Assembly (NCBI GenBank): GCA_019261985.1
Contig: JAFAQY010000027.1
Location: forward strand, 1 to 64,000
DNA length: 64,000 bases
Origin: Bryobacterales bacterium
GTDB lineage: Bacteria; Acidobacteriota; Terriglobia; Bryobacterales; Bryobacteraceae
Direction of reading: 5' to 3'
This document shows, piece by piece, positions 2,039-36,088 of this stretch. Under the pieces are notes generated by a model. It made no database searches. It worked only from the letters and a program-made list of their open reading frames with translations, and was not told where the DNA came from. How positions within the stretch are numbered: the first letter of the stretch is position 1; each line of letters begins with the position of its first letter. The position numbers and the translations under genes were made by a program.

Positions 2039-2715
2039 GCTTCGGCGGCCTTACGCACCAGCCCGGCGTTCAGCATTTCAATCACCGGCGCTCCGGCGCG
2101 GAAGCGCTTCACGATCTCGGGGAGCAGCTTGGGTGATTCGGTAATTTCGGGCTCCAGCTCGGCGCCGAAATACCAAGCCTTGCGCCGGATTAAATCGCTG
2201 GCGGGGTGCGCGGGATCGAACCCCTTGGGGCTGCGCGCAAGCGAGTCGCCGCGAAGCTCGCCCATTAGCTTTTCGACGGATTTCATTGCTTCGCGAAATT
2301 CCTGGTGATGCGCGGCAAGCCACGTCCGGACCGCGAACAGTTCCACCGGCCCCGGCATGTAAGCGCCCATAGCGATGGCCACCGATTTCGGCGCGATATG
2401 GAAATAGAATCCGGCGCTGGTGTGGCGCTCTTTATCGCGCCGGGGAAAGATTGCGGCAACGTGGGTCTTGTAGGGAGTTTTGTCCGGGCTGAATCGCGTG
2501 TCGCGATAGATGCGATACACGGCTTTCTTCGGGTCGGTGATGTGATCGGGAGCGAAGCGCAATAATTCGGCGTTAACAGCTTCAACAAGCTCCAGCATCG
2601 GCGCTTTGACGCTGGTTTCGAAGATCTCCTTTCGCGGCTGGAACCATTCCCGTCGATTGTTGCGTTCCAAACCGCGTAGAAATTTGAGCGCTTCGGGCGG
2701 AAATCCGGCGAACAT
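2035..2715 (-). CDS. DUF2461 (TIGR02453) family protein
   Basis: A 226-residue protein with the hallmarks of the DUF2461 family: FLRGLERNNRREWFQPRK near the N-terminus, then AVYRIYRDTRFSPDKTPYKT and AGFYFHIAPKSVAIAMGAY. The biochemical role of the family is unknown. It is the first gene of the DUF2461-formimidoyltransferase-lipA operon. Only 19 bases separate its ATG from the divergent murB, so the two promoters must overlap or lie within the coding sequences. Confidence 0.85.
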   Translation of the reverse strand: MFAGFPPEALKFLRGLERNNRREWFQPRKEIFETSVKAPMLELVEAVNAELLRFAPDHITDPKKAVYRIYRDTRFSPDKTPYKTHVAAIFPRRDKERHTSAGFYFHIAPKSVAIAMGAYMPGPVELFAVRTWLAAHHQEFREAMKSVEKLMGELRGDSLARSPKGFDPAHPASDLIRRKAWYFGAELEPEITESPKLLPEIVKRFRAGAPVIEMLNAGLVRKAAEA

Positions 2716-2734
2716 AGGGTAAGTTTAGAATACG

Positions 2735-3676
2735 ATGCTTGCCCGCCTCCGGGACATTCCCGGTCTCGAAATTTGCAAAAACGTCCCGCTAAGCGGCCTT
2801 ACGCGTTTTGGGCTGGGAGGACCGGCCTGTGTGCTCGCGGACGCATCGACAGAGGAGGCTCTGGCCGCCGCGCTTGATGTTGTTCGAGGGGCCGCATGTC
2901 CTTACGCGCTGGCCGGCGGCGGCACGAATCTCATCGCCTCCGATGCCGGCTTTCCTGGCGCGGTACTGCGATACACGGCCAACCGTATCGAAGTTGACGA
3001 TCACAGAATCGTGGTAGAAGCAGGAGCCGTGCTTCAACATCTGGTCGATTTCAGCATTGCGCGCGGACTGAAAGGGCTGGAGACGATGACTGGAATTCCG
3101 GGATGGACAGGAGGGGCGGTTTACGGAAATGCGGGAGCTTATGGTCATTCGATCCAGGAACGCATCGAGTGGGTTCGTTTCTATGATGGCCGGCGCTGTC
3201 GCGAAATCGGTAATGCCGAGTGCGATTTCCGCTACCGGGAGAGCGTGTTCAAGGCGCGGAAGGGTTGGATTGTTGTCGCGGCGGGGCTGCGCATGGAAGC
3301 CGGCGATGAGGATCAACTGCGGACTACAGCCGAAGGAATTCTTCGCATCCGCAACGAGAAATACCCTCCCTCCATGCGGTGCGCGGGCAGCATTTTCAAA
3401 AACCTTCTACTTGCCGATCTGCCGGAGTGCGTGCGGGCGATGATCCCGCCAACCGTAATTCGAGAGGGCAAAGTGCCATCCGCCTACTTCCTGGAGCAAG
3501 TGGGCGCGAAGGGGATGGCCAATGGACCGATTGTGGTTGCCGGGTACCATGCGAATCTCATCTACAACACGGGCGGGGGAACCGCGCGCCAGCTTCGCGA
3601 ATTAATTCGAGAGCTTAAGCTGCGCGTCAAGGCCGCATACGCGATTGAGCTTGAGGAAGAGGTGCAGCATTTGTGA
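2735..3676 (+). CDS. murB: UDP-N-acetylenolpyruvoylglucosamine reductase
   Basis: FAD- and NADPH-dependent reduction of UDP-GlcNAc-enolpyruvate to UDP-MurNAc in peptidoglycan synthesis. FAD-binding motifs are LAGGGTNLIASDAGFPG and TGIPGWTGGAVYGNAGAYG. The C-terminal domain carries RCAGSIFKN, with the serine expected to be the proton donor, and a late conserved glutamate. The length (313 residues) and lack of a tyrosine-loop insertion suggest a type II enzyme. It stands apart from any mur/fts cluster. Its 3' end overlaps the convergent thiE by 50 bases. Confidence 0.94.
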   Translation: MLARLRDIPGLEICKNVPLSGLTRFGLGGPACVLADASTEEALAAALDVVRGAACPYALAGGGTNLIASDAGFPGAVLRYTANRIEVDDHRIVVEAGAVLQHLVDFSIARGLKGLETMTGIPGWTGGAVYGNAGAYGHSIQERIEWVRFYDGRRCREIGNAECDFRYRESVFKARKGWIVVAAGLRMEAGDEDQLRTTAEGILRIRNEKYPPSMRCAGSIFKNLLLADLPECVRAMIPPTVIREGKVPSAYFLEQVGAKGMANGPIVVAGYHANLIYNTGGGTARQLRELIRELKLRVKAAYAIELEEEVQHL

Positions 3677-29251: not shown

Positions 29252-30277
29252 ATGCGTAGAACTGTCATACAGATAATCGCGATCGGCCTCGCAGTGATCT
29301 ATAGCTCGATCGCTTCGGGACAACCGGCAATCAGCGGCACTGTCACCGACCCCGACGGCGGTGTGGTGAAAGAAGCCGCAGTGCAGGCAAAGAACTCCGC
29401 GACCGGCGCGGTGGTTCGCGAGTTCAGCTCGGCCAATGGTGAATATCGCCTGAATCTTCCGCCTGGAATATACGACGTCAGTGTTCCTATGCCGTGCTGC
29501 CAGTACGGGTCTTTTACCCAGCCCGGAGTCGCCGTAAATGCTGGAGAGACGCGAAGGCTTAATATCCGACTGCCCTGGGGCGCTAACCTGGGCACCATCG
29601 GCGACGATCCCATTCTTCTTCTGAATGAATTCCGCGAGCGCGCGGCCGTTCCCAGGGGGCCGGCTCCGCGCACGGCCGATGGGAAGCCGGATGTTTCGGG
29701 AATTTGGATCAATGTGTACAATCCGGATAGTCCTCCTCCACCGCTCCAGCCGTGGGCGGACCAGTTGCATCGCCAGCGTCAAGAAAACGATTCCAAGGAT
29801 TACCCGGGTGGGTTTTGCTTACCCGCGAATGCCGCGCCGATCACGCGGGCATTTCCATATAAATTCGTTCAGACGCCGAAGCTGATCGTGGTGCTTCATG
29901 AATCGGATACCCCTGGCGTGCGGCAGATTTTCTTAGACGGCCGGGGCCACCCCAAGGACATGAATCCGACATGGGAGGGACATTCGATCGGGCACTGGGA
30001 AGGCGATACCCTTGTGGTGGATACGGCAGGGTACAACGACCGCTCCTGGCTGTCGCTTTCCGGAATTCCTCACACCGAAAAGCTGCACACGGTTGAGCGA
30101 ATCCGCCGGCCCGAATACGGGCGGCTGGAGGTGGAAATAACCATGGACGATTCCGACGCTTTCACGGGCCCGTGGAAGCGCACGTTCACGGCGACGCTCG
30201 CGCCCCCAGACGAAGAGATCATGGAATTTGTCTGCGGCGAGAATAACCGGGACGTGAACCACTACCGCGGCAAGTAG
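29252..30277 (+). CDS. Exported CarboxypepD_reg-domain protein fused to an unnamed domain
   Basis: 341 residues. Signal peptide ends near YSSIASGQ. Residues 27-95 are a carboxypeptidase-regulatory (CNA-B-like) beta sandwich: ISGTVTDPDGGVVKEA through LNLPPGIYDVSV. Residues 130-341 are shared with the protein at 49122-50228: RTADGKPDVSGIW, RQIFLDGRGHPKD, GHWEGDTLVVDTAGYNDRSWL, LHTVERIRR and EFVCGEN. That second domain recurs in Acidobacteriota proteins but I know no function for it. Confidence 0.72.
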   Translation: MRRTVIQIIAIGLAVIYSSIASGQPAISGTVTDPDGGVVKEAAVQAKNSATGAVVREFSSANGEYRLNLPPGIYDVSVPMPCCQYGSFTQPGVAVNAGETRRLNIRLPWGANLGTIGDDPILLLNEFRERAAVPRGPAPRTADGKPDVSGIWINVYNPDSPPPPLQPWADQLHRQRQENDSKDYPGGFCLPANAAPITRAFPYKFVQTPKLIVVLHESDTPGVRQIFLDGRGHPKDMNPTWEGHSIGHWEGDTLVVDTAGYNDRSWLSLSGIPHTEKLHTVERIRRPEYGRLEVEITMDDSDAFTGPWKRTFTATLAPPDEEIMEFVCGENNRDVNHYRGK

Positions 30278-30426: not shown

Positions 30427-33400
30427 ATGTACTCTATTCAGAAGCGGCTTTGCCCGGGCATCGCTCTGTTTCTAAGCTCTATTGCGGCACATGCGCAGAA
30501 CGTGGCCACGGGAGCAATCTCGGGTCAGATAACGGACCAGCAGGGCGCGGCAATCCCCAGCGCCAAAGTCACCCTCACGGAAACTTCCACGAATTCCACA
30601 AGCGTCACTAACACCAATGAGGCTGGCCGGTACACATTTCCCACAGTGCCGCCGGGAACTTACGACTTGACGGTCACAAAGGAAGGCTTTGCACTCGCGA
30701 AGTTGGTGGCGCAAAAGGTAGATGTCGGCATGGCCCTGACGATGAACCTCGCCATGCAGATCGGGCAGGCGACGACAATTATCGAGGTGGAGGCGACCGC
30801 TGGAGCGGAGCTGCAAGTTATGAATGCCACCATCGGTTCGACGATTTCGGGCGATTCTTTGCAATTGCTACCCAACCTCGGACGCGATGCATCCACACTG
30901 GCCGTGCTTCAAGTAGGCGTGACTGCATTTGGAAACACCGCGGGGGCCAATCAGGATCAGAACAGCTTTCAGCTCGACGGCGGCAACAACAGCAGCGACA
31001 TGGATGGCAACCAGAGAACCTATACTCCTAGCAACGGGTACACAGGTACTTCGTCCACGGGAGGTTCTCCATCCGGTGTGATTCCCACGCCCGTCGAAAG
31101 CATCGAAGAGTTCAAGATTGGAACAAGCAACCAAACCGCCGATTTCGCCGGCGCGGCAGGCAGCCAAGTCCAAATGGTGACCAAACGGGGAACCAACACA
31201 TTTCATGGCGCCGCGTACGAACACTACTTCGCAGCCAACATCGGAGCCGCCAACCTATGGAAGAACAATCACACCCCTTCTTATGGTTTGCCATATACTC
31301 CGCTTCCTTCAACGCATCGGAACCGGTTTGGCATGGCGGGCGGCGGTCCGTTGACGCCGTCGTTCTGGGGCGGCAAGACGTATATTTTCGCCAACTACGA
31401 AGGCTACCGCTTTCCGCAAACCACGACGTTTGAAAAGGCCGTGCCTTCCCTCCTGCTGCGCAACGGAATCATTCAGATTCCGAATTCCGCGGGCGTTTAT
31501 CAGGCCTACAACCTGAATCCTGTTCCGGTGACCGTTAGCGGGGTCACGTACCAACCCGCCATCTGCAGCAATGGTTCCTTCTGCGACCCGCGTGGACTCG
31601 GCTTCAATCCCATCGTCCAGAAGATCTGGAACACGATGATGCCAATGCCGAATGATCCGCAGTACATCGTTTCGGGCGCTTCGGACGGTGTGAATCAGCA
31701 AGGCTATCTCGCGAATATACGCTTGCCCCAAAGCTCGGACTTTTTCGTGGTCCGGCTGGATCACGACTTCGGTAGCAAGTGGAAGTTCATGTCCAGCTAT
31801 CGGTACTACCGGTTCACGCAACTGGCGACCACCCAGATCGATATCGGAGGCGTGTTACCAGGCGATACGTTCGGCGTACCGTCTTCTTCAGCGCCGCGGC
31901 CGCAGAAACCCTGGTACCTCGTCGCCGGACTGACGGGCGCAATAACGCCGAACCTCACTAATGACTTCCGCGTCAGTTATCTGCGTAATTATTGGGAATG
32001 GTCGACGGTGGGCGGACCGCCACAAATACCCGGTTTAGGGGGCGCGTTGGAGATGGGCGGAGAAACCGCCGCGGTGAACGCATTGATCCCTTACAACGTC
32101 GACGCGCAAAACACACGCAGCCGATTCTGGGACGGGCAGGATTGGTTGATACGCGATGATCTCAGCCTACTGCGCGGGAACCATCTATTCCAATTTGGGG
32201 GAACGTATCAGCGCAACTACGACTATCATCAACGCAACGACAACGGAGTGGGTATCGATACATCCGTGGTTTATCAGATCACCAATGGGACCGGCATCAA
32301 CTTTCCCGCTGCATATGAGCCGGCGAATCTGCCTGCCTCGCAGATCACCAACTGGGCGAATCTCTATGCACAGGCATTGGGGATGGTCAGCCAGCCCCAG
32401 GTGATGTACACGCGAAGCGGCGCGAATTTGAATTTGAATCCGTTAGGAACTCCGGGCTTCGATCAAAGCATCATTCCGGCTTACAACGTATACTTCAGCG
32501 ACACATGGCGCATGAAGCCCACCTTTACGCTGACCTATGGATTGGCATATACGCTGCAGCTTCCGCCTTATGAGATTAACGGCAAACAGGTGGGACTGGT
32601 GGATTCGGCAGGCAATCCGATCGAGCTTGCGGATTACCTGGCGCAAAAAGAAAAAGCCGCGCTGGCCGGCCAAGTCTACGATCCTATCGTGGGTTTCGCG
32701 ACGGTCCGCAATACGGGCGGGGGCCAGAAGTACCCTTTCAATACCTTCTACGGCGGGTTCAGTCCGCGGGTCTCGGCCGCTTGGAGTCCGAAAGCCGATA
32801 ACGGCGTGCTAGGCGATATTTTGGGCCATGACAAAACCGTGATCCGCGGCGGGTATGGCCGGATCTATGGCCGTCTGAACGGCGTTGGTCTCGTCTTGGT
32901 CCCGCTGCTCGGTACGGGACTGTTGCAGCCGATATCGTGCATTGGCGCTAGCCGGAGCGGCCAGTGTCTGGGCAACGGCGGCGTGGATCCGACCACCGCC
33001 TTCCGCATCGGCGCGGACGGCATGAGTGCCCCTTTACCGGCGATCTCACAGACACTTCCTCAGCCGTATTTTCCAGGCGTAGGCGGAAATGCGTCCGCGG
33101 GCGATGGATCGCAACTCGATCCCCATTTCAAGCCCAGCCACTCCGATGAATTCAATTTCACCGTACAGCGCGCGCTCTCGCAGAAGCTGGTGATCGAGGC
33201 CGGTTATATCGGACGACGCATGCGGGACGAGTTTCAAGAGATTAATATCGACGCTGTTCCGTATATGACTACGCTTGACGGGCAAAGTTTTGCCAATGCC
33301 TATGCCAACCTTTATCAGCAGCTGAGCTCCGGCTCAACCGCTGTCTCAGCGCAGCCGTTCTTTGAGGCAGCTCTCGGCGGGACCGGATCGGCATATTGCG

Positions 33401-34464
33401 CGAAATTCGGTACCTGTACGGCTGCAGTGGCCGCGAACTTTAAATCGTCGATACTTGCGACGCAAGTATACAGCCTGTGGAATGGCCTGAATGCGGCGCC
33501 TTCGTGGACGCTAGGGCGGACCCTGCTCAGCTCTCCCGCCCAGGCGGGAGGCGCGGTAGGCACGCAACTCTCATCACTCGAGTACTACACGAACTTCGGA
33601 TACGGCAACTACAATGGCGCATTCCTCTCATTTACGGCGAAGGATTGGCATGGACTGACAGCCCGTTCCAATTTCACTTGGAGCCGCGCGCTTGGAACGG
33701 GAAGTCTGCAACAATCTTCAAGCTCCATCACGGTAGTGGACCCCTGGAACGTGCATGCATCGTACGGAACGCAGCCGTTCGATATCCGTTTCGTGTACAG
33801 CCTGATGATGGTTTATCAGCCGCAATTTTGGAAAGGCCAGAAAGGATGGGGACGCGCATTGGGCGGCTGGTCGATATCGCCCTTGTTTATGGCTCAGAGC
33901 GGCGCACCGCTACAGGTGAACGTCGGAACGGGTAGCAACTCCGACGCTCAGGCTTTTGGTGAAATTTACGGCAACAACAACCGCGCTTTTGAGAACGCTG
34001 TGCTCACCGGTCCTTTCACAGGCGGCAATTCCACGCATTACAACGTGACTGCCAGCGGAGCGGGCGTCAATGGCAACGCGTCCAAGGGGGGATCCGGAAT
34101 CAACTTGTTTGCCGACCCAAATGCTACATATGCATTATTCCGCCGTCCCATTCTCGGCTACGATACATCGGGCGGCGGTGCGGGAGTCATTCGGGGTCTG
34201 CCGTCGTGGACGCTGGACACGAGCATCTCGAAGGATATTGTTTTGAACGAGCGCTTCGGTGCGACGCTTTTATTCCAAATCACGAACATCTTGAATCATT
34301 TCCAACCCGCGAATCCCACCTTGAATATCGATAGTCCGCAGACTTGGGGCGTGATTACGGATCAGTCGACCGTAGGGGCGTTGTCGGGGATCGGAGGAAC
34401 GGCGGGAGGAGTTCCGGCGATCAACCCAAGGCAGATGGAATTCGGTCTGAGGCTTCGTTTCTAG
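30427..34464 (+). CDS. TonB-dependent receptor with N-terminal CarboxypepD_reg domain (Oar-like)
   Basis: 1,345 residues, outer membrane. Signal peptide to about residue 22. CarboxypepD_reg domain at about 26-110 (ISGQITDQQGAAIPSAKVTL, YTFPTVPPGTYDLTV). Plug region at about 125-260, with the family's NSFQLDGGNNSSDMDGNQR and PTPVESIEEFKIGTSNQ. The rest is a long beta barrel ending in EFGLRLRF, with the terminal aromatic residue that Bam recognises. The ligand is unknown; such receptors are abundant in Acidobacteriota and are usually linked to saccharides or peptides. An M20-type protein follows 19 bases downstream. GAGGAGGGAGGG precedes the ATG. Confidence 0.88.
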   Translation: MYSIQKRLCPGIALFLSSIAAHAQNVATGAISGQITDQQGAAIPSAKVTLTETSTNSTSVTNTNEAGRYTFPTVPPGTYDLTVTKEGFALAKLVAQKVDVGMALTMNLAMQIGQATTIIEVEATAGAELQVMNATIGSTISGDSLQLLPNLGRDASTLAVLQVGVTAFGNTAGANQDQNSFQLDGGNNSSDMDGNQRTYTPSNGYTGTSSTGGSPSGVIPTPVESIEEFKIGTSNQTADFAGAAGSQVQMVTKRGTNTFHGAAYEHYFAANIGAANLWKNNHTPSYGLPYTPLPSTHRNRFGMAGGGPLTPSFWGGKTYIFANYEGYRFPQTTTFEKAVPSLLLRNGIIQIPNSAGVYQAYNLNPVPVTVSGVTYQPAICSNGSFCDPRGLGFNPIVQKIWNTMMPMPNDPQYIVSGASDGVNQQGYLANIRLPQSSDFFVVRLDHDFGSKWKFMSSYRYYRFTQLATTQIDIGGVLPGDTFGVPSSSAPRPQKPWYLVAGLTGAITPNLTNDFRVSYLRNYWEWSTVGGPPQIPGLGGALEMGGETAAVNALIPYNVDAQNTRSRFWDGQDWLIRDDLSLLRGNHLFQFGGTYQRNYDYHQRNDNGVGIDTSVVYQITNGTGINFPAAYEPANLPASQITNWANLYAQALGMVSQPQVMYTRSGANLNLNPLGTPGFDQSIIPAYNVYFSDTWRMKPTFTLTYGLAYTLQLPPYEINGKQVGLVDSAGNPIELADYLAQKEKAALAGQVYDPIVGFATVRNTGGGQKYPFNTFYGGFSPRVSAAWSPKADNGVLGDILGHDKTVIRGGYGRIYGRLNGVGLVLVPLLGTGLLQPISCIGASRSGQCLGNGGVDPTTAFRIGADGMSAPLPAISQTLPQPYFPGVGGNASAGDGSQLDPHFKPSHSDEFNFTVQRALSQKLVIEAGYIGRRMRDEFQEINIDAVPYMTTLDGQSFANAYANLYQQLSSGSTAVSAQPFFEAALGGTGSAYCAKFGTCTAAVAANFKSSILATQVYSLWNGLNAAPSWTLGRTLLSSPAQAGGAVGTQLSSLEYYTNFGYGNYNGAFLSFTAKDWHGLTARSNFTWSRALGTGSLQQSSSSITVVDPWNVHASYGTQPFDIRFVYSLMMVYQPQFWKGQKGWGRALGGWSISPLFMAQSGAPLQVNVGTGSNSDAQAFGEIYGNNNRAFENAVLTGPFTGGNSTHYNVTASGAGVNGNASKGGSGINLFADPNATYALFRRPILGYDTSGGGAGVIRGLPSWTLDTSISKDIVLNERFGATLLFQITNILNHFQPANPTLNIDSPQTWGVITDQSTVGALSGIGGTAGGVPAINPRQMEFGLRLRF

Positions 34465-34483
34465 ATCTAAGGAGATTGGTTTG

Positions 34484-36088
34484 ATGTCACCCAAATCTGC
34501 GTCTTCCGCGCTGGACAAGCTGAAGCTTGTCCTACCTGACCTGGACAAGCGGGAACTTGTCGTACCTGGCCTGGACAAGCGGAGGGGTGTCCTGCCTGAG
34601 GTGGATCGCCGCACCTTTCTATTCAGTGCCGCTGCCGCGCTCGCGCCTGCCTTGAAGGCTGATTCGACGCCCGATCTTAAACCGGTCTTTACGGAAATCG
34701 AAAAGCGCCATGCCGAATATCTGCGCCTGATTCAGGATTGGATCCGCCAACCCACCATCGCGGCGGAAAACAAGGGCATCAACGAAGGCACGGAGCTGAT
34801 GATGCGCATGTTGCGCGAGATCGGATGCCAGCAAGTGATCAAATGCCCCACCGATCTGCATCCCGGCGTATTCGCCACGCTAGACGCGGGCGCACCGAAG
34901 ACCTTGGCGGTTTACATCATGTACGACGTTAAGCAAGTGGACCCGTCGGAGTGGTCTTCGCCGCCTTTCACTCCTACGTTGGCGGACAAGCCAGGGCTCG
35001 GGAAGGTGCTGGTCGGGCGGGGCGCCGTGAATTCTAAGGGACCCGAAGGTGCCTTCCTCGCGGCCGTACACGCGCTCCGAAGCAGCAGCCGGAAGCCGCC
35101 CGTCAATCTTGTGTTTGTATGTGAGAGCGAAGAAGAAATCGGTTCGCCGCACATTCAACAGGTTGTGCGGCGTCCCGATGTCACTGCCGCCTTACAGAAA
35201 TGCATGGGTGTGTTGACGCCTTCCGCAACGCAAGCGCTCGATGGAACGGTCACCATGTCGCTCGGCGCAAAGGGAGTCGTCGAATTGGAGCTCGTTTCGA
35301 CGGGCGAAAAATGGGGCCGCGGCCCGAAGCTGGACGTGCACTCAAGCAATAAGGCGCGGCTCGACAGCCCTGCCTGGCACTTGGTGGAAGCACTCGCCTC
35401 GCTGGTTTCGCCGGACGGCAATACGATCCTGGTGGATCATTATTTGGACAAAGTGCGACCCGTCAGCGCGGCGGAGAAAGCTATGATCGATGAGGCCGCG
35501 AAACGCCAGGACGAGGCTTTGCTAAAGAAGCAGCTTGGCGTGCAGCATTGGGTGCACGACGTGAGCTTCCGCGAGTCCCTGGAACTGCTCTGCTCGCAGC
35601 CGACGATCAATATTGAAGGTTTGGTTGGCGGCTACACGGGACCTGGCGGTAAAACTATTCTTCCCCATAGAGCCGTCGCCAAGATGGATCTGCGGCTGGT
35701 CCCGGACATGACCGCTTCGGATGCGCTCGCCAAGCTGAAGGCCCATCTGGCCGCGAAGGGCTTCGGAGATATCGAAGTGAACATGACCGGCGGCTATGAT
35801 CCTACGAGCACTTCTCCAGACTCTCTGCCGGTTCGCGTGGAAAGCGCCATCTACAAGCGCAACGGAATCGATCCCATCGTTTGGCCTCGGCAGGCGGGTT
35901 CCTGGCCAGGATACGTTTTCACTGGCGAGCCGTTGAAACTTCCCGCAGTCCACTTTGGGTTGGGCCATGGAAATGGCGCTCACGCCCCCGATGAATACTA
36001 TTTGATCGAGTCGGATAACCCGAAAATTCAAGGCTTAAATGGCGCCGTGCGGAGCCACGTTGAGTTGCTGTATGAACTAGCCGCGTAG
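34484..36088 (+). CDS. Exported M20-family hydrolase homologue with substituted metal ligands
   Basis: 534 residues, ATG at 34484 behind AAGGAG. Residues 10-39 are three tandem ten-residue units (LDKLKLVLPD, LDKRELVVPG, LDKRRGVLPE) made by a 30-base DNA repeat. A Tat-like signal follows (VDRRTFLFSAAAALAPALKA). The M20 fold is clear: VDPSEWSSPPFTP, VGRGAVNSKG, ESEEEIGSPH and late GHGNGAHAPDEYY. Yet the usual GHxDV metal His is Met146 (YIMYDV) and the bridging Asp of GRGxxDxKG is Asn182. The Asp148 and Glu216/217 positions remain. It may be a distinct subfamily or an inactive binder. Confidence 0.8.
   Translation: MSPKSASSALDKLKLVLPDLDKRELVVPGLDKRRGVLPEVDRRTFLFSAAAALAPALKADSTPDLKPVFTEIEKRHAEYLRLIQDWIRQPTIAAENKGINEGTELMMRMLREIGCQQVIKCPTDLHPGVFATLDAGAPKTLAVYIMYDVKQVDPSEWSSPPFTPTLADKPGLGKVLVGRGAVNSKGPEGAFLAAVHALRSSSRKPPVNLVFVCESEEEIGSPHIQQVVRRPDVTAALQKCMGVLTPSATQALDGTVTMSLGAKGVVELELVSTGEKWGRGPKLDVHSSNKARLDSPAWHLVEALASLVSPDGNTILVDHYLDKVRPVSAAEKAMIDEAAKRQDEALLKKQLGVQHWVHDVSFRESLELLCSQPTINIEGLVGGYTGPGGKTILPHRAVAKMDLRLVPDMTASDALAKLKAHLAAKGFGDIEVNMTGGYDPTSTSPDSLPVRVESAIYKRNGIDPIVWPRQAGSWPGYVFTGEPLKLPAVHFGLGHGNGAHAPDEYYLIESDNPKIQGLNGAVRSHVELLYELAA
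34511..34600 (+). repeat. Three tandem 30-base units of the TRAA hairpin element inside a gene start
   Basis: Units at 34511-34540, 34541-34570 and 34571-34600 each begin CTGGACAAGC and end in a TACCTG or TGCCTG word. The first contains the perfect palindrome GGACAAGC-TGAA-GCTTGTCC (34513-34532), identical to the copy at 49103-49122. The second and third are degenerate in their right arms. The period of 30 keeps the reading frame. Confidence 0.8.

Follow-up and report, generated by a model that had tools for sequence, protein, structure and literature searches.

In the carnosinase CN2, metal 2 is ligated by the N-terminal nitrogen of bestatin, a dipeptide analogue. The 5-nitroanthranilate aminohydrolase has the M20 fold with a changed reaction, as its entry titles also indicate, and the zinc ligands have been lost from the ectodomain of nicastrin. 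For mouse CN2, the ligands of metal 1 are given as His445, Asp132 and Glu167 and those of metal 2 as Asp132, His99 and Asp195 (PMC6271292). A table in PMC13058870 lists five metal ligands for HiDapE and assigns the catalytic roles in M20 enzymes to the Asp of the HxD motif, the Glu preceding the metal Glu and the oxyanion-hole His; the nicastrin ectodomain is described as aminopeptidase/transferrin-receptor-like and as possibly binding substrate N-termini (PMC4326451).

The protein analysed here is encoded in a 64,000-nucleotide stretch of DNA from a soil bacterium of the Bryobacterales (contig JAFAQY010000027.1), the whole of which is called the window. It is an M20 protein by fold and profile and, as judged by alignment, lacks the ligand set that defines M20 metallopeptidases. 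Its top match by both sequence and fold is the metallo-carboxypeptidase SsoCP2 (4mmo, M20), which has the metal His and the bridging Asp and is without the six-residue insertion described below, whereas the window protein shows the reverse. CN2/CNDP2 (2zof, 4ruh) has the same two-domain fold (Z of 39.2 and 40.0) and shares the catalytic Glu, the metal-1 Glu, the late His and the oxyanion His region, but its His99, Asp132 and Asp195 stand against Met146, Asn183 and Ser247, and it too is without the insertion. Mono-zinc DapE (4o23, 3isz), an M20 fold with one metal according to the entry titles, was matched with Z of 30.3 and 28.2, and the 5-nitroanthranilate aminohydrolase (5k8m-5k8p) at just 13-15% identity. 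The dipeptidase-like profiles PRK06446, PRK08201 and PRK09104 were the best from NCBIfam, with 152-233 bits against cut-offs of 327-441 bits, so that by score the window protein is a member of none of them.

Gene and predicted fold

The gene (Table 1) was read from the ATG at 34484, which has AAGGAGA 8 bases upstream, to the stop at 36088, in an intact frame; the mechanical start of the open reading frame is an in-frame TTG at 34481. Residues are numbered from the ATG. Using Pfam curated cut-offs, both the catalytic and the dimerisation domain were recognised, PF01546 (Peptidase_M20) at 47.7 bits (cut-off 24.6) and PF07687 (M20_dimer) at 33.1 bits (cut-off 21). None of the 25 best NCBIfam families listed reached its own curated cut-off, the top one, PRK06446, scoring 233 bits against 369. 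Structure prediction, proposed in an earlier note made from the sequence alone, returned an M20 fold: the AlphaFold model (75 sequences) has a mean pLDDT of 90.5, with 94-98 in the blocks holding the site residues, and its top match among solved structures is 4mmo (Z 42.4, rmsd 2.5, 432 residues, 32% identity). The modelled fold is of the two-metal M20 dipeptidase/carboxypeptidase type, like carnosinase and SsoCP2, with a lid/dimerisation domain.

Table 1. Positions in the window of the M20-fold gene, its upstream neighbour and the residues discussed
Feature	Position	Strand	Remark
Outer-membrane receptor-like gene (PF25183, CarboxypepD_reg), upstream neighbour	30427..34464	+	Probably incidental
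M20-fold protein gene, group A of the altered-site clade	34484..36088	+	534 aa from ATG
Tat-like signal, residues 40-60 (VDRRTFLFSAAAALAPALKAD)	34601..34663	+	Motif in sequence
Met146	34919..34921	+	Aligns with metal-2 His (CN2 His99)
Asp148, kept	34925..34927	+	HxD Asp; His-orienting Asp in DapE/aminoacylases
Asn183	35030..35032	+	Aligns with metal-bridging Asp (CN2 Asp132)
Glu217 (position of the general base) and Glu218 (position of the metal-1 ligand), kept	35132..35137	+	
Ser247	35222..35224	+	Aligns with metal-2 Asp (CN2 Asp195); variable within group
Inserted residues 275-280 (Glu-Lys-Trp-Gly-Arg-Gly), clade hallmark	35306..35323	+	
His286, oxyanion-hole His of dimerisation domain, kept	35339..35341	+	
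Arg404, conserved Arg	35693..35695	+	Possible substrate-carboxylate binder
His500, late metal-1 ligand His, kept	35981..35983	+	

Metal site and insertion

Ligand positions were assigned by profile alignment to mouse CN2, SsoCP2 and 2pok. From the five-ligand M20 set His-Asp-Glu-Asp-His, Glu218 and His500 alone remain in the window protein; in the alignment to CN2, all metal-2 ligands are changed and the metal-1 side chains are kept except for the bridging Asp. The earlier note had named a Met at the metal-2 His position with the following Asp retained, which is what YIMYDVKQ gives (Met146, Asp148), and a late His motif that remains, which is His500, aligned with the metal-1 His of CN2. It was also right that the bridging Asp is replaced by Asn in GRGAVNSKG and that the Glu pair is retained, but these residues are Asn183 and Glu217/218, and not 182 and 216/217 as numbered there. 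A third lost ligand, beyond those in the note, is CN2 Asp195, which became Ser247. Simple misalignment was rejected, since the letters around the motifs run on without a break and the PDB-chain alignments give the same picture.

The catalytic Asp148 and the general base Glu217 are invariant in groups A-C (defined below) and His286 is present in all groups aligned, and the trio named by the roles in the PMC13058870 table is thus kept whole. By analogy with the row for Arg258 of HiDapE in the same table, Arg404 is possibly the Arg that binds a substrate carboxylate. Conserved residues specific to the clade were also found beyond the metal site (Asp134, Gln250, Asp294 and Asn376). As a control, the 17 PF01546 matches of the window's own genome were examined, of which 9 could be aligned to the profile and 8 could not; the bridging Asp is kept in seven of the nine, the exceptions being the window gene and its C13 paralogue, and two of the nine could not be read in the column of the metal His.

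The insertion is filled in all 154 altered sequences and is a gap in all 16 canonical ones, and it is also absent from 4mmo, 2pok and 2zof. Its consensus is mostly x-x-Trp-Gly-Arg-Gly, it ends six residues before His286, and its block was modelled with a mean confidence of 96. At position 277, 150 of the 154 altered rows have Trp, 3 have His and 1 has Thr; at position 279, Arg occurs in 143 rows, Gly in six, Leu in two, and Lys, Ala and His once each. Since all seven group B rows have Gly or Ala at 279, Arg279 cannot generally replace metal 2, and its candidacy as a general substitute was weakened. Lys150 was rejected in the same role, Lys150-Gln151 being confined to group A, with Gln-Pro in group B and Met-Pro in group C. 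The group C forms with Gln at 146, as aligned, are without the loop carrying the conserved Gln250; a pairing of Met146->Gln with loss of this loop is only partial, as some group C forms with Met are without it too.

The altered-site clade

Relatives were taken from a contig scan (best 80 of 337 relatives, 62-86% identity to the window protein), and further rows came from genome searches. Matches with <300 aligned residues were omitted first, which removes broken pieces of L102. The 225 sequences were reduced to 185 by removing near-identical copies, and 13 of the 185 were dropped because a motif position was gapped; ten of them are fragments of genes that had been counted already, and the other three (L132, L100, L101) are truncated or broken copies. 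Removal of two further duplicates left 170 distinct rows, 154 altered and 16 canonical. The altered rows, which are partly near-copies with shared ancestry and not independent events, comprise 119 of group A, 25 of group C, 7 of group B and 3 further-altered. Residues 146 and 183 are Met/Asn in 142 of the 154 and Gln/Asn in 8; three are the further-altered rows and one is unreadable at 183. Group A has Met146/Asn183 in 119/119 distinct full-coverage rows. Group C has Met/Asn in 17 and Gln/Asn in 8 of its 25 rows, and group B has Met/Asn in 6/7, one of the six being a Bacillota plasmid gene and the seventh row (L134) having X at 183; Met146 is invariant in both A and B. Group B and C proteins are about 30-46% identical to the window protein, and Glu217, Glu218, His286 and His500 are kept in 151/151 distinct full-coverage rows of groups A-C.

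A first tree of 50 rows, with 13 motif columns excluded, and a second, with more motif columns and the insertion columns excluded, both separated altered from canonical proteins with 100/100 support, the canonical sampling being modest (16, then 21 rows). The second tree (33 altered versus 21 canonical rows) omits four rows of the first, three of group A and the truncated L132, and adds 8 later ones. The deep branching order inside the altered clade is less sure, with 83-94% bootstrap. The altered-site proteins are one conserved clade and not an isolated mutant. The impression recorded earlier, of a true subfamily sharing the VN-KG form, is thereby upheld by the co-conservation of Met146 and Asn183 in group A; homologues with the canonical residues, which the note would have taken as a sign of isolated mutation or misalignment, do exist but fall outside the clade. 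A description of the clade was not found in the literature as searched by titles and abstract beginnings, with subscription papers mostly outside its coverage.

Two haloarchaeal plasmid genes have Met146 and Lys183, and one Bosea plasmid gene has His146 and Ala183. In these three (L202:4983-6470, L207 and L203:5115-6578), Leu or Ile replaces the metal-1 Glu, and Glu or Ala the late His. They are annotated as M20 metallo-hydrolases, and transporter genes lie nearby. The later rows L245-L274 all fit the defined groups except for L246 and L256, found in two genomes of the same phylum as the window, which have Asn at 146 and Gln at 218, with Glu (L246) or Gln (L256) at 183. The late His is absent from its aligned place in both, and their Glu motif is altered to DRQ and DEQ, L246 having also lost the Glu217 base. 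These two rows are sister to the Cytobacillus gene L201 (99/97). Both side lineages with changed metal-1 ligands keep the insertion, His286 and the Arg. The Cytobacillus plasmid gene (L201:5016-6398) has the Met/Asn form, apparently without a signal peptide, and its neighbours are genes for M14 peptidases and for an ABC transporter of oligopeptides. Four plasmid-borne relatives within the clade are annotated 'M20/M25/M40 family metallo-hydrolase'.

Export, selection and neighbouring genes

The export claimed in the earlier note is in keeping with a Tat-like motif, VDRRTFLF, at residues 40-47 of the window protein. A Tat-like motif was found in 109/119 distinct group A N-termini, against a mean of 10.65 after shuffling, and a lipobox-like motif in 17/25 group C N-termini, against 2.4. 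Judged by these motifs, with provisional start codons, most group A proteins are probably exported by Tat and most group C proteins are probably lipoproteins. In the window, positions 34511-34599 hold a 30-bp unit repeated in tandem to make three copies (77% matches), which lengthen the N-terminus ahead of the Tat motif; the repeat gives recurring LDKR-like decapeptides, absent from the N-termini of the relatives inspected. Compared with six relatives over 470 codons, dN/dS was 0.045-0.107, with dS near saturation.

As had been pointed out, the M20-fold gene follows a receptor gene, here receptor-like by PF25183 and CarboxypepD_reg, and begins 19 bp past its end. A receptor clustering with it was found in 3/81 group A stretches (the window included; lengths differ). 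The receptor family has 66 match rows in the genome that holds the window, with 65 of 110 candidates scored; a single gene may underlie two of the rows, and the receptor of the window itself is missing from those listed. Because such genes are so numerous there, the adjacency was not taken as meaningful. Upstream of the receptor, at 29252-30277 (+), lies a gene for a protein with a carboxypeptidase-regulatory domain, the remainder of which is without a Pfam match. Clustering of the open reading frames of 81 stretches (80 loci and the window), in 74 of which the M20 frame itself was picked, gave no general neighbour of group A, and a conserved operon was rejected for these stretches. The commonest neighbour was a frame directly upstream in 12 loci, of which the one scanned has BNR/sortilin-like repeats.

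For group C, 16 stretches from 13 genomes were compared (20 were fetched, 4 of which proved to be group B; some overlap or share a genome). An ABC ATPase is present in 13/16, with MacB and LolD as top profiles, below their cut-offs. MacB_PCD/FtsX-type permeases are also present in 13/16, two or three of them in 11; a frame of 421-781 aa occurs in 11/16, the three examined being without a Pfam match and showing CHE[GA]YPGHH, and an outer-membrane receptor-like gene in 9/16. The recurrent cluster (for instance at L208, L213, L215, L217 and L222, the last in the window's own genome) has between one and three M20-like proteins. As many as three group C copies stand in tandem, and Gln and Met forms occur together in L208, L213 and L217, being adjacent in L208. 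Near the group C genes of L213, at 2630-3565 (-), a secreted-looking protein with HxH motifs is encoded; this one protein matched YtkA at E 0.06, below the cut-off, and had no PDB match.

Proposed function

The window protein may be a Tat-exported hydrolase working with one metal, a reading that we favour tentatively. The metal-2 half of the binuclear centre is dismantled in this clade, its His having become Met or Gln, its terminal Asp Ser or other residues and the bridging Asp Asn, and a six-residue loop has been gained beside the oxyanion His286. In groups A-C, one metal would then be held at site 1 by Glu218, His500 and Asn183. Asn is a possible terminal metal ligand and is unable to bridge two metals as Asp does; a one-metal hydrolase is favoured because a single metal needs no bridging carboxylate and Asn could still serve it as a terminal ligand. 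Glu217 would still act as general base and His286 would still supply the oxyanion group, and the inserted loop would fill or compensate for the emptied metal-2 pocket, possibly reaching over from the partner subunit. As it is metal 2 that ligates the free amino terminus in CN2, its loss predicts that ordinary dipeptidase activity is lost and that the substrate has changed, perhaps to a periplasmic amide that bears a carboxylate and is N-blocked or otherwise different. That Glu217, Glu218, His286 and His500 are kept despite about 30-46% identity argues for use of metal 1, since a residue serving mainly as a metal-1 ligand would be expected to drift without a bound metal. Position 183 leaves Asn in the lineages where Glu218 and His500 change (Lys in haloarchaea, Ala in Bosea, Glu in L246, Gln in L256), which suggests that 183, 218 and 500 act as a unit, and the Tat-like motif in 109/119 group A rows fits export of a folded, cofactor-loaded protein.

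Against a single metal stand the two side lineages with changed metal-1 ligands and the lost base of L246, by which the function shared across the clade may be metal-free, and also mono-metal DapE, which uses the opposite site, its single zinc being bound at the site equivalent to the one missing here. Because of these two lineages and the row without the base, a metal-free pseudoenzyme is nearly as likely: the M20 pocket would bind a peptide or amino-acid ligand, as a receptor, chaperone, carrier or regulatory lipoprotein, with no hydrolysis. Such a role would account for the change of at least three, and at most all five, metal ligands across the clade and for the retention of the insertion, His286 and the Arg where metal-1 ligands are lost; it would also suit the lipobox-like motif in 17/25 group C rows with MacB-type ABC transporter genes nearby, and the nicastrin ectodomain, as described in PMC4326451, offers a possible precedent. 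Binding would not obviously need Glu217, Glu218, His500 and His286, which are nevertheless present in 151/151 rows of groups A-C. It is improbable that Met146, His500 and Glu218 form a softer periplasmic site for Cu(I)/Cu(II) or some other metal. Groups A and B always have Met where a metal ligand used to be, and this, the probable export to the periplasm and the HxH-motif protein at some group C loci point that way, but Met gives way to Gln in 8/25 distinct group C rows, the YtkA hint is non-significant, and a Met beside a Trp-containing loop may be mere packing.

Just as little probability is given to a chemistry other than amide hydrolysis, after the manner of the 5-nitroanthranilate aminohydrolase: the presence of 5k8m-5k8p among the fold matches suggests a fold able to change its reaction, and the clade-specific residues lie beyond the metal site, but the neighbours of group A give no hint of a substrate. 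That the substitutions mark a gene decaying toward a pseudogene is scarcely credible, even though the relatives in G049 and G122 are fragmented with in-frame stops. The same substitutions occur in 119/119 group A rows, whose genomes bear the labels of several phyla, the frame is intact, and conservation and the dN/dS of 0.045-0.107 make the pseudogene reading very unlikely for the window gene. Taken at its fullest, the one-metal reading is that half of the binuclear centre was replaced by a loop, giving an enzyme with one metal (metal-free in the side lineages) for a new periplasmic substrate class, and in this combined form it is rather unlikely. If true, it would provide a natural series of steps within one fold from a binuclear metalloenzyme to a metal-free protein. 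The clade and its canonical outgroups contain one-site intermediates and members without any remaining ligand, so that the loss of metal from a two-metal enzyme that stays useful could be tested directly with a handful of proteins. The names Peptidase_M20 and metallo-hydrolase may mispredict activity here, the metal-2 ligands being changed.

Distribution

The spread of the altered clade is patchy. It covers Acidobacteriota and Gemmatimonadota as well as genomes labelled with further phyla, the labels being those of the record titles, and it reaches Bacillota, haloarchaea and Alphaproteobacteria as outliers. Group A was found in 19/200 sampled genomes of the window's family (its own included; three partial) and, among 12 sampled genomes of its genus, in its own alone. 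Two genomes of the family carry broken or rearranged group A copies, L101 and L102 (G049:C713, G122:C124). In the phylum sample, 20/297 genomes have group A (the window's own included), 2 more have group B and 11 more have group C. For the other phyla, matches at E up to 1e-50 were counted, giving 2/145 genomes in the phylum of the Spartobacteria-labelled genome, 4/117 in that of the Deltaproteobacteria-labelled genome and 27/150 in that of the Gemmatimonadetes-labelled genome. These 27 comprise 16 of group A by identity, 8 at 41-46% that are group B-like, four of them read, and 3 at 33-35%.
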